Source: Hypomesus transpacificus (taxonomy: Eukaryota; Chordata; Actinopteri; Osmeriformes; Osmeridae). Taken from it: a stretch of DNA of 64,000 bases. Each line of letters starts with the position of its first letter. Within the stretch, counting starts at the first letter, position 1. The position numbers and the translations under genes were made by a program. Shown here piece by piece: positions 33,611 through 42,976 of this stretch. Where the stretch lies: the NCBI RefSeq assembly GCF_021917145.1, contig NC_061064.1, positions 5,388,481 through 5,452,480 of the forward strand, written 5' to 3'. Under the pieces are notes generated by a model. The model was not told the DNA's origin. It made no database searches and saw only the letters and a program-made list of their open reading frames with translations.

Positions 33611-33619
33611 TCTCCCTAG

Positions 33620-35110
33620 AATCATGTTATGGAGGACGAAGCCCAGGCCCATCTTCCTTCCTCTGTGAGAGCCGTGACCAAGCCTTGTGCCACTAATGAC
33701 GTGCACCCCACCATGGTAGACGAGAAGAGGCACGACAGGGTTAGGGTTAGTGCCACTCTTAGTGCGACAAGAGCCATGAAAAGGTTCCAAAAGTCCCTGG
33801 TTGCCCTGGAACAGGACCTTATGAAAACCAAGGCGGACATCCTCAACACCAACGAGTACTTCAAAGAGATGTCTCGTGTGAAGATCCAGGGACAAGGCCG
33901 GATGGGTGCGTCTCTGAGAAAACTCGTAGATAACGTCAGAGGGAAAAGGCTCCAGAGGGTTCAGGCGCATAAGTATATACAGGTCAGACAAGATTTCGAT
34001 GCACTGATCCAAGTGATCCAGAACGACTGCAGAGCTGAATTCAATATGACGGGCCTGGAGGACTGGAAGAGAGAGGTTAAGAGGCTGCACATGGCCTGCA
34101 AGGCCTGCACTGAGAGGGTCCAAACACCTGAGGTGTGTAGTTCCCCACCACAGGTCCAACCCTCTCAGGAACAGAAGTCCTCCATCCAACCCTTTGTAAG
34201 TAATCAATACAGAGACTGTACGTATTCATTTATTCAGCTATTGTTTGATTCAAGGTATGGCATGGCACTGTTTGTTGATTATCATCCTAAAGAGCCATGG
34301 AAAGATCCCAGGTCCCTCATGCCGAAAGGTTATGTCTTCTCTTGTCTCCCCAGGATCTATCTGAGACAGAGCCCACTCTTGTGGTCCCCTTCGCTATTGA
34401 GGATGCCACGGACTCACCCCCTCTGACTCCTCCGACACCCGAGGCCCTCCTCCCCAACCAGCAGCTTCCCCGGGCTTTGACTCCCCTCAACAATGTCACC
34501 GTTGGAGCTGTGAGTCCTACATGGCCTGAGACTTCGCCTGCTGTGGGGTATTTAACCCCCCCTTGTCTGGCACCAATCCAAAACTTGAGCACTGTTGCAA
34601 AGAAGCTGCTCCAAGAACTGGAAGAGCTCCAGCAGGTGGGTCATCATCATCATAGGCAAATATATGATATTCACTGTTGAAGCATAAATCCCAATTTGCA
34701 CAATATTGACTGTATTAATTGCGGACTAATGAGGCTGGAAAAGAACCATGATGTAAGTTTGTGTTCTGTTTTCAGGATGTGACGGAGGAGAAGAAGATTG
34801 GCAAAGGGGAGAAGACGTATGTCAAACAACTGACTGTGTTGGAAGTCAGTAGCAAACAGCCAGAGGGAAACAATGTGAAGGAGGAGATAAAAAAGAAAAA
34901 GAAGAATGTGGGAAAGAGGTGAGGACAGATAGCAGAAAGGCTAAAGGGAGGGGTGGTATAATGTGGGTCAAGGCAGTAAGACCCTCAGTGTAAGGATGAG
35001 AGAATGTGTACTGGTATGGCAGATTACATTTGATGTTTTTTCTTATGATTGACAGGTTTCTCCAGTGGCTGTCGAGAAAACTCATATGCGGCTGTTGTTC
35101 AGATGTGTAA
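33620..35110 (+). CDS. Unrecognised gene, copy 1 (exons 6-9 only)
   Basis: Exons by homology to copy 2: 33620-34195, 34354-34635, 34776-34918 and 35056-35110, coding the last 351 residues. The first five exons would lie in the gap, whose stated size is far too small for them. The protein is identical to copy 2 apart from one site in exon 7, where an in-frame 6-base difference gives NNVTVGAV instead of NHVGAV. All splice sites and the stop codon are intact, so nothing marks it as a pseudogene. The function is unknown; see copy 2 for the domain description. It could be a true tandem paralogue or, less likely, an assembly artefact. Confidence 0.75.
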
Positions 35111-35197
35111 CAAACATGCATGCATACTCATACTCTTTCTATCTCTCTGTCTTTCACAACACAGAGATGTCTATGTGACTCTCACACACACACATTT

Positions 35198-35441
35198 TCT
35201 TTCTCTCTCTCTCTCTCTCTCTCTCTCTCTCTCTCTCTCTCTCTCTCTCTCTCTGTCTCTCTCACACACACAGACATTCACCCTCTCTCTCTCTCTCTCT
35301 CTCTCTCTCTCTCTCTCTCTCTCTCTCTCTCTCTCTCACTCTCTCTCTCATTGTTTTCTCTCTCTCTCTTTCTCTCTCTCTCTCTCTCTCTCTCTCTCTC
35401 TCTCTCTCTCTCTCTCTCTCTCTCTCTCTCTCTCTCTCTCG
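35198..35441. repeat. (TC)n tract in the 3' UTR of copy 1
   Basis: About 240 bases of TC dinucleotides are interrupted by CACACACAGACATTCACCC and TCATTGTTTTC. They lie between the stop codon and the AATAAA. Confidence 0.9.
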
Positions 35442-35473
35442 CTCACACAGATGCTTGACTTAATGTTGTTCTC

Positions 35474-35479
35474 AATAAA
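35474..35479 (+). terminator. Poly(A) signal, copy 1
   Basis: AATAAA lies within TCTCAATAAAGTTATC, 364 bases after the stop codon, and is conserved in copy 2 at 41333-41338. T/GT-rich sequence follows. Confidence 0.7.
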
Positions 35480-35610
35480 GTTATCATTTTGTGTTTCATT
35501 TGGTATTGCTTTTTAATGGTTACTACTTGATGATTATTACTGCACTGCTTCACGTGGGCTTGCTGTAGTGGATATGGATTACTGGTGTTTTTTTCGGGGA
35601 GTCTGATAGA

Positions 35611-35920
35611 CAGACATCCCAAGTCTCCCGGAAGTTCCGGGAGTCTCCCGCATTTCAATAGCGGACAACCGCAAATGCTATAAAATGTCCCAGAATTCAT
35701 AGATTTTGTATTTAGAGCGAGCGCAAGACTGTGCAATGGCCGTTTAAGGTCGAAACAGGTGCATATCGCACGTCCTAATTTCGTCCCGGGGAGGGGGTGG
35801 TACGTGCTGGTTGAGGGAGTAGCCTACATCATGTGTGCGGATTGCGTCCCGGAGGGGGGGGGGGGTGGGGGGGGGGGGGAGTTGCCTCCCGGAAATGAGT
35901 CTCTGCAGGTTGGGATGTCT
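35611..35920. mobile_element. Short element with 12-base inverted ends (copy 1)
   Basis: CAGACATCCCAA at 35611-35622 is matched by its exact complement at 35909-35920. The interior holds the palindrome TCCCGGAAGTTCCGGGA and a long G-run. The element is present in both duplication copies, so it predates the duplication. The structure resembles a small non-autonomous DNA transposon; no family can be named and no target-site duplication is clear. Confidence 0.5.
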
Positions 35921-40950: not shown

Positions 40951-41040
40951 CAAACATGCATGCATACTCATACTATTTCTATCTCTCTGTCTTTCACAAC
41001 ACAGAGATGTCTATGTGACTCTCACACACACCCATTTGTC

Positions 41041-41300
41041 TTTCTCTCTCTCTCTCTCTCTCTCTCTCTCTCTCTCTCTCTCTCTCTCTCTCTCTCTCTC
41101 TCTCTCTCTCTCCCTCTCTCACACACACACAGACATTCACCCTCTCTCTCTCTCTCTCTCTCTCTCTCATTGTTTTCTCCCTCTCTTTCTCGCTCTCTCC
41201 CTCTCTCTCTTTCTCTCTCTCTCTCTCTCTCTCTCTCTCTCTCTCTCTCTCTCTCTCTCTCTCTCTCTCTCTCTCTCTCTCTCTCTCTCTCTCTCTCTCG
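41041..41300. repeat. (TC)n tract in the 3' UTR of copy 2
   Basis: Same position and interruptions as in copy 1, but with different run lengths. Confidence 0.9.
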
Positions 41301-41332
41301 CTCACACAGATGCTTGACTTAATGTTGTTCTC

Positions 41333-41338
41333 AATAAA
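41333..41338 (+). terminator. Poly(A) signal, copy 2
   Basis: AATAAA in a context identical to copy 1, 382 bases after the stop codon. Confidence 0.7.
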
Positions 41339-41469
41339 GTTATCATTTTGTGTTTCATTTGGTATTGCTTTTTAATGGTTACTACTTGATGATCATTACT
41401 GCACTGCTTCACGTGGGCTTGCTGTAGTGGAGATGGACTACTGGTGTTTTTTTCGGGGAGTCTGATAGA

Positions 41470-41764
41470 CAGACATCCCAAGTGTCCCGGAAGTTCCGGG
41501 AGTCTCCCGCATTTCAATAGCGGACACCCGCAAATGCTATACAATGTCCCAGAATTCATTGATTTTTTTTTATTTAGAGCGAGCGCAAGACTGTGCAATG
41601 GCCGAAACAGGTGCATATCGCACGTCCTAATTTCGTCCCGTGGCGGGAAGGGGGTGGTACCTGCTGGTTGAGGGAGTAGCCTACATCATGTGTGCGGATT
41701 GCGTCCCGGAGGGGGGGGGGGGGAGTCGCCTCCCGGAAATGAGTCTCTGCAGGTTGGGATGTCT
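41470..41764. mobile_element. Short element with 12-base inverted ends (copy 2)
   Basis: This is the duplicate of 35611-35920, with the same CAGACATCCCAA termini at 41470-41481 and 41753-41764. It is about 15 bases shorter, mainly in the G-run. Confidence 0.5.
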
Positions 41765-42976
41765 GGATAGAGGAAAGAATAATGAATGGTCACACACAAA
41801 ATATACACAATATACACAGATAAACCCCTACAAATATTGTTACAATGTAAACTTGTCAAAATGTGTAGTCTAAACTGGACTTTAGGACGTAGTGGACTTG
41901 ATGGACAATCTCCAATGAAACAGGGTGATGGGGGTGAGTGGGGCTGTGTTCTTCCTGAAGTCCACAACCATCTCCACTGTCTTAAGATTATTGAGCTGTA
42001 TTTAAAATGTTGCATAAAGACATAGTGTACATGTTAAAGTCATTAATAAAGTGTGTGAAATTTGGCTTGGACAATGACCACTTACATTTAAGAATATGAA
42101 ATGTGCCCATCAAAATCAGTAGTTGGATAAAATATATACAATCCAAATCAACATCTGGATCGATAAAATAAAAAATAATATCAAAGCTATTAATTGTTAT
42201 AACATGACCTGTTATGTTATGAATATGACGAACCAATGAAATTGTTTTAGCTGGCATTTAATGCAAATTAAAGTCTCTGTAAGTGACAATAAAATATGTA
42301 TTCTGAGCTTGTCACACCACAGAAAAATGTTGTTAACCACCCAGCCAAATGTTTTTTTTTTTTAAAGAAGCCAAGTAAAGTTATCAAAATCTTGTAAAAA
42401 TGAGCAGTTTTCTCAGATCTCAAATGCTGGGGGCGTGTTTGCTTAGGTCGCTGAAAACACGCCCACTTCGCGCAGGGGCGGTTTTAGGCACGGGCGGACC
42501 CGGCAGGTTTTTTTGGCTCCAGTCTCCCTATACAACCATGTATGTAACACAATTTCCACTATTTACTTCAATGTACCAAAACATCCCAGCCCTATCAATC
42601 AACAATGTATGTCTCTGGGTGGGTATGGGTAGAAAACATGGAGTCTATCAGTGTTTCCAATAAAACGCTTATCATCCTTGTGACAGATCGGTATTGAGAT
42701 TGGGCATGGTTTCATTATAAGCAAGAGTCCTAGCATGTCCTGTATTGACATGGTTACCTATCTGTTCAGTGAATATTTTTACCTTGAAGGTAAGACATTT
42801 GACATCATCTCTGGAAGAAATTGAGATACCACTGCACCTTTTTCTTTCAAAAAGGTTTAGGACAATTATTTAAATGGTTGAGTAAGGAATAGAAGGGTAA
42901 ACATGTGCAGTACCCTTCTGTTTCTTGCTCATATTTGTCGGCCCTTAATGGGAAGCTACAATAACTCCCTTTAAAG

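Follow-up and report, generated by a model that had tools for sequence, protein, structure and literature searches.

Introduction

Gig2, as outlined in PMC3617106, is a family of non-amniote vertebrates that has grown by lineage-specific duplication. In vertebrate genomes more generally, tandem copies are described as more frequent than interspersed segmental duplications (PMC13431229), and false duplications rank among the common assembly errors, one reported case being a partial tandem repeat of four of the ten GABRG2 exons (PMC8081667). Here we analyze a stretch of 64,000 nucleotides of the Hypomesus transpacificus genome (437 Mb in 376 contigs), hereafter called the window (C5:5388481-5452480), in which two direct copies of a multi-exon gene lie between an immunoglobulin (Ig) V-set exon and a gig2-like gene.

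The gene in the window, like Gig2 of fish and amphibians as portrayed in PMC3617106, belongs to a fish family grown by lineage-specific duplication; Gig2 proteins, however, have a PARP-like N-terminus, whereas the protein encoded here has no PARP match in Pfam and its copies lie elsewhere. As in the vertebrate interspersed segmental duplications treated in PMC13431229, copies made at the DNA level, introns included, are found at distant sites, but here a small one-gene unit recurs often and its frames are mostly intact. Fungal transposon-mediated amplification, in the account given in PMC6710886, likewise multiplies a host gene across the genome beside repeats; unlike that case, no element with fixed ends was demonstrated here. 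Lastly, the false GABRG2 duplication resembles the window in being a partial exon repeat at an assembly gap, but differs from it, going by the case described in PMC8081667, in that the copies here are joined without a gap and many further gene copies exist in the genome.

The window pair as one locus of a scattered gene family

A first-pass annotation of this DNA had described a recent tandem duplication of an unrecognised gene. The observation stands with its limits corrected: the pair is one locus of a scattered, fast-changing and mostly intact family, and is itself less surprising than that family. We consider it probable that the two copies are members of a fast-evolving host gene family, lineage-restricted by appearance, that would have multiplied by both tandem and interspersed duplication at the DNA level.

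Copy 2, the right-hand member of the pair, carries a gene of eight exons (38774-40950) with 429 codons plus a stop, an ATG at 38774 and GT-AG borders at all introns, in agreement with the intact splice sites and open frame noted at first pass. This gene is coding beyond chance, since none of 5000 dinucleotide shuffles left the fixed frame open, whether in exon 5 or in the whole coding sequence, and third-position GC content is 0.576 compared to 0.32-0.43 in the introns.

A search of the animal's own genome with the exon 5 protein sequence found 26 places, two of them being the window copies and one of the 26 being cut by an N gap. Sixteen further places with 69-100% identity lie on 12 contigs (C2, C3, C5, C8, C11, C13, C17, C18, C49, C50, C196 and C367); they include a fragment on C3 that possibly represents the DNA of copy 1 itself. 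Seven diverged places, with 29-41% identity, are all on C5. The most diverged member, used as query against the same genome, returned 25 places, none of them new. A frame of 1723 residues at C196:19851 is no fusion; an N gap had been read through as open. The gene had been called new or fast-evolving and just duplicated: its fast evolution is borne out (overall omega of 0.79, see below), but with 16 further places on 12 contigs the reading as a new gene that has just duplicated is not supported.

We fetched 20 stretches of 10 kb, covering the 16 further places and, from the seven diverged places, four. Within these loci the copies match through introns and flanks, and they therefore spread as DNA rather than as processed RNA copies. 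Three groups can be distinguished: group A (the window, C5:5.557M, C8 and the C3 fragment), group B (C50 and C2:9.99M) and group C (L014-L022 and L024, ten copies in all, of which the tree included seven); the truncated L023 falls outside all three. Exons 2-8 could be placed in 15 copies, of which 12, including window copy 2, are intact. L025-L028 (too diverged to be aligned in this way), L023 (exons missing), and W1 and L009 (gap-cut) were excluded before these counts; the frame tests cover exons 2-8, exon 1 having apparently been misplaced by the pairwise alignment in group C copies.

Pfam searches with single open reading frames, the whole protein and ten family members gave a best E-value of 0.007 and nothing above cut-off, so that the protein is, as first described, unmatched to any family. 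Weak matches to Pfam and to PDB (by sequence and by profile; best profile E = 0.057) were rejected as chance, and tblastn found no relative among viral and prokaryote contigs. The family looks lineage-restricted.

The numerous intact copies, recently dispersed through a single fish genome, offer a natural series for following how a complete gene travels between chromosomes, and the same series lets one ask what drives the family's fast change. The case also illustrates how a reading confined to a single window can mistake the gap-cut edge of a genome-wide family for a new gene pair.

A constrained C-terminus and a fast-changing core

Length changes relative to copy 2 come in multiples of three in 48 of 52 exon cases, compared to 8 of 72 in introns 2-7 (14 copies), or in 9 of 13 and 4 of 21, respectively, when distinct changes are counted once, the kinship of the copies making these counts non-independent. 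Splice sites are conserved in the same 14 copies (acceptor AG in 97/98, donor GT in 84/84). Mutation alone to 15% divergence left only 1 of 1000 simulated coding sequences without stops, which argues that frames are held by selection between groups.

Between groups A and C, synonymous divergence (dS) is 0.177 and nonsynonymous divergence (dN) 0.150, a ratio of 0.85; the ratio is 0.60 for A-B, 0.78 for B-C and 0.56 within C. The A-C ratio for exon 5 is 1.13 (1.19, 1.14 and 0.95 in three parts) compared to 0.13 for exon 8. Fitting a codon model to the 12 intact copies gave an omega of 0.79 overall (twice the log-likelihood difference, 2ΔlnL, of 5.05 vs. omega = 1), with 0.62 for exons 2-4 (2ΔlnL 5.78), 0.86 for exon 5 (0.76, not distinct from 1), 0.88 for exons 6-7 (4.47) and 0.26 for exon 8 (6.31); these tests are approximate, kappa being fixed in the null. 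The C-terminus is constrained, while the core evolves at close to the pace of silent sites. We do not claim the core's pace as proven positive selection. A near-neutral core with a held C-terminus would be in keeping with proteins that face an ever-changing partner, as in conflict with a pathogen or a selfish element.

A family of little function in decay, its young copies open merely through recency, would account for an exon 5 omega that is not distinct from 1, for the frameshifts in three of the 15 copies (L015, L021 and L024) and for the truncation of L023. It fits poorly with the frame-keeping length changes, the conserved splice sites, the constrained exon 8 and the 12 copies without inner stops despite a dS of about 0.18-0.20 among groups A-C, and we regard it as very unlikely.

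Besides the kinship of the copies and the three frameshifts, several points weigh against our preferred reading of a fast-evolving, lineage-restricted host family. At 2% divergence, 390 of 1000 simulated frames were still without a stop, and an omega near 1 with intact frames can also be compatible with weak constraint on young copies. The ratios are lower within groups than between A and C (0.56 in C and 0.60 for A-B, as above); fast evolution is supported, more strongly between groups than within them. Some of the copies on small contigs could represent second alleles of one locus, for example L017 (C196) and L018 (C49), which have a common block of 5690 bases (97.1% identity) around the gene copy. 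The apparent lineage restriction is drawn solely from absent profile matches, the one fish genome searched being the family's own. The structure model of exon 5 is poor (mean predicted local distance difference test score, pLDDT, of 51.4), and the membrane tether considered below is read from sequence alone.

Probable spread of the copies as DNA segments

Copy ends are ragged overall, and shared extents range between about 3.4 kb (L021) and about 5.8 kb, the longer copies including two promoter-like blocks. A fragment containing the first coding exon of a GABARAP-like gene is found in 7 of the 20 fetched loci: downstream of the gene in L010, L015, L019, L022, L024 and the diverged L027, and upstream of it in L017. 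In L022 this exon lies at 7007-7096 (oriented), with similar exons in the other six; its 30 residues align along their entire length to GABARAP with E = 3e-14, the Pfam Atg8 match (E = 0.0075) being below cut-off. We read the GABARAP fragment as probably part of a common ancestral segment that was trimmed differently in each copy.

These features raise the question of whether the gene is transposable element cargo, the gene copies being transposon copies. Dispersal over many contigs with introns included would be expected in that case. Furthermore, three group C copies (L016, L019 and L024) have different outer flanks and a common left start, TATGGAGCTAGAAAGCTGAC, which is the beginning of a high-copy repeat of about 520 bases (L016:1563-2074; a first look gave 392 candidate places, of which 40 were scored), and L015 and L024 have a common right end. 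However, the ends vary among copies, the high-copy repeat terminates shortly inside the left junction of the gene copies, and only four of its listed places (C11, C17, C18 and C367) are gene copies. When a few ends of gene-bearing copies were inspected by eye, neither matching inverted ends nor a target-site repeat was seen. Taken together, we think it unlikely that the gene is transposon cargo. We favor a scenario in which ragged-ended DNA segments of about 3.4-5.8 kb would have carried the family through the genome, in the manner of interspersed segmental duplication, perhaps helped by the neighboring high-copy repeat. Unequal exchange at the window locus would then have produced the tandem pair or triplet, and gene conversion or very recent exchange would keep the gene halves of the pair alike.

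Selfish genes include meiotic drivers such as those of the wtf type. A bolder and quite unlikely variant of this scenario is that a complete multi-exon host gene behaves here like a mobile genetic unit: a segment of about 3.4-5.8 kb that moves with its introns, mostly keeps its frame and holds a C-terminal anchor, with a core that is near-neutral or in an arms race, as a selfish gene or an immune decoy. If true, the dispersal and the diverging core would be as expected of either. Under this variant, the stretch VDYDDLSL of the protein (see below) could act as a docking motif of the YxxL type, and the recurrent GABARAP exon fragment could be either a hitch-hiker or something more.

The tandem pair and the question of assembly

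The visible part of copy 1 (exons 5-8, 3′ untranslated region (UTR) and 3′ flank; plus strand) spans 33611-37136 and matches 39457-42973 with 96.7% identity over 3559 alignment columns (blastn). The two copies lie head-to-tail in the same orientation, and the junction at 37136/37137 contains no N. Their left edges are shifted by 5846 bases, giving a unit of about 5.85 kb; with this shift and its right edge at 42973, copy 2 would occupy 37137-42973 on the plus strand, its left edge being taken as the base after copy 1. The pair of near-identical 3.5-kb copies first described is thus present in the sequence, but 3.5 kb is the size of a cut unit: on its left, copy 1 ends against a 500-N assembly gap (33111-33610), probably of nominal length, and not at a duplication boundary, the period is 5846 bases and the similarity is uneven. 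Copy 1 exon 5 begins 9 bases past the gap edge. No likeness to 37137-39456 was found in 30500-33110; for copy 1 the window shows none of exons 1-4, and these must lie within the gap or be absent.

From exon 5 to the early 3′ UTR, the copies differ by only 3 substitutions in 1555 aligned bases, compared to 28 in 1618 in the 3′ flank (Fisher p = 5e-6; CT and G runs excluded from the counts). Introns share the low divergence (1/435, p = 0.02 vs. the 3′ flank). The longest identical run is formed by the first 881 bases, a length equalled or exceeded in 112 of 20000 random placements of 27 of the 31 substitutions, a run of four at 36508-36511 being excluded. This unevenness between the gene half and the 3′ flank suggests gene conversion or very recent exchange across the gene half. 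Over the shared exons 5-8 we found one substitution and one 6-base gap, giving NNVTVG in copy 1 and NHVG in copy 2, which confirms that the shared coding parts differ at this site alone.

The C3 fragment (C3:14234292-14240670; loci L009 and L030) consists of 6379 bases between a 100-N gap and a 500-N gap. It begins inside exon 2, and its exons 3-4 precede exons 5-8. Its first 533 bases match window positions 38924-39456 with one substitution (at 39169; 532/533), and it is 99.78% identical to window 33611-39456, exactly one period, with a single substitution outside CT and G runs, at 34758, where it has copy 2's base. Its last base corresponds to 39456 and the start of the window contig, 33611, to 39457, so that the two abut to the base. 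The simplest reading is that one original contig may have been cut by the scaffolder and its small piece placed on C3. The array would then have at least three units and copy 1 would be complete, as it probably is. Alternatively, the C3 fragment could be a redundant copy of the same two-unit array.

A further alternative is that copy 1 is an assembly artefact and no second gene, representing copy 2 from the other haplotype or a piece that was placed redundantly. Copy 1 starts exactly at the 500-N gap and a near-identical fragment lies between gaps on another chromosome, suggesting that the assembler probably cut the sequence or placed it twice; in addition, the divergence of the 3′ flank (28/1618) is compatible with alleles, and the GABRG2 case provides a precedent for false partial tandem duplications (PMC8081667). 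On the other hand, copy 1 passes without N into the upstream part of copy 2, while a single gene would put the end of copy 1 against the sequence at 42974, not 37137. The C3 fragment also amounts to a full period plus 533 bases with ends alike, as a piece of a tandem array would. The gap-free junction is the strongest sequence argument against an assembly-made copy, and we consider an artefact rather unlikely, though to be kept in mind.

Structure of the gene and of the predicted protein

All exons of both copies are on the plus strand. In copy 2, the coding part of exon 1 (38774-38794, from the ATG; the exon may start at 38754, after an AG) is followed by exon 2 (38882-38962, ending WDQLSLHSFTDEDFL), exon 3 (39091-39177, ending YDDLSLCSVSETDFL), exon 4 (39263-39313), exon 5 (39466-40041), which would encode a helical core, the proline-rich exon 6 (40200-40475, with the NHVG variant), the lysine-rich exon 7 (40616-40758) and the coding part of exon 8 (40896-40950), encoding the C-terminus RFLQWLSRKLICGCCSDV. 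In copy 1, exon 5 (33620-34195) has AG/GT borders and an open frame and is identical to that of copy 2; exon 6 (34354-34635) has the NNVTVG variant, with the substitution at 34492 and the 6-base gap from 34495; exon 7 is at 34776-34918 and the coding part of exon 8, up to the stop, at 35056-35110. A duplication inside the gene gave rise to exons 2 and 3, and it took in the intron ends upstream of them, which match at 66 of 78 positions. The comparison of these two exons was rejected as a sign of positive selection, synonymous sites being nearly saturated in 27 codons.

Two plus-strand blocks upstream of the copy 2 gene, block a (37384-37911, TATAAAA at 37587) and block b (38037-38599, TATAAAA at 38284), are 79% identical to each other, a second duplication within the gene, and are candidates for promoters and first exons. 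Block a has an ATG upstream of the main frame where block b has ATT; this ATG, via predicted splice sites, would open an out-of-frame upstream frame. Short transposon-like insertions are found in the 3′ flank of copy 1 (35605-35927, with inverted ends CAGACATCCCAA/TTGGGATGTCTG within a GATAGA direct repeat) and in copy 2 (41464-41771). As both copies carry it, with its inverted ends and GATAGA target repeat, the insertion predates the duplication.

Charges alternate along the protein, from an acidic N-terminus through a basic core and an acidic proline-rich part to a basic tail. A single-sequence model of exon 5 predicts helices at residues 35-86, 95-137 and 145-168 of the exon, with low confidence. 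Few changes affect the tail RFLQWLSRKLICGCCSDV among the 12 intact copies, of which L016 is without two tail residues; a similar tail is present in L027 (E = 4e-5), weak partial tails are present in L025 and L026 (E = 0.03), and none was found in the diverged L028. The stretch VDYDDLSL does not vary among the 12 intact copies. With low confidence, we picture the protein as an adaptor inside the cell, its acidic, repeated N-terminus being followed by a helical core, a proline-rich linker and a basic C-terminus with cysteines; this C-terminus, with equally low confidence, may be fatty-acylated and hold the protein at a membrane. Our best guess is a membrane-tethered adaptor in some conflict.

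Neighboring genes and the gig2-like gene

The left part of the window contains a BTG-domain exon (2411-2587), and a domain search also identified the Ig V-set exon (29399-29713), which we take to be from CXADR, and a minus-strand Band_7 exon (50412-50618). In a search of the whole window, no Rfam entry reached its gathering score. The gig2-like gene is on the minus strand at 46584-47138 and has a PARP domain (E = 7e-7); we retain the name given to it at first pass.

The proximity of this gene, together with fast evolution, would suit an antiviral, interferon-induced gene acting with gig2. A site of the interferon-stimulated response element (ISRE) type, TTTCACTTTC, also lies at 37005-37014, upstream of the first TATA box by about 580 bases. 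The other family sites, however, are not beside gig2. Relatives of the gig2-like gene were covered by a genome search that gave 10 matches (7 on C21, 2 on C5 and 1 on C209). A family member adjoins just one of these, the match in the window, so that the link to an antiviral locus first drawn from the window is not supported and gig2 would be an incidental neighbor. The ISRE scan does not discriminate, because the window contains 8 such sites, none of them within 5 kb upstream of gig2. An antiviral role alongside gig2 is in our view decidedly improbable.

At the place after copy 2 that corresponds to 37005-37014, the ISRE-type site is lost via a 6-base deletion. The gig2-like gene is bracketed by an inverted repeat (46479-46639 and 48068-48217, 79% identity). 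A second, diverged inverted repeat pair (29980-30140 and 45285-45445, 83%) brackets the whole gene region, its right member resembling what we take to be a protein fragment of a long interspersed nuclear element (LINE).

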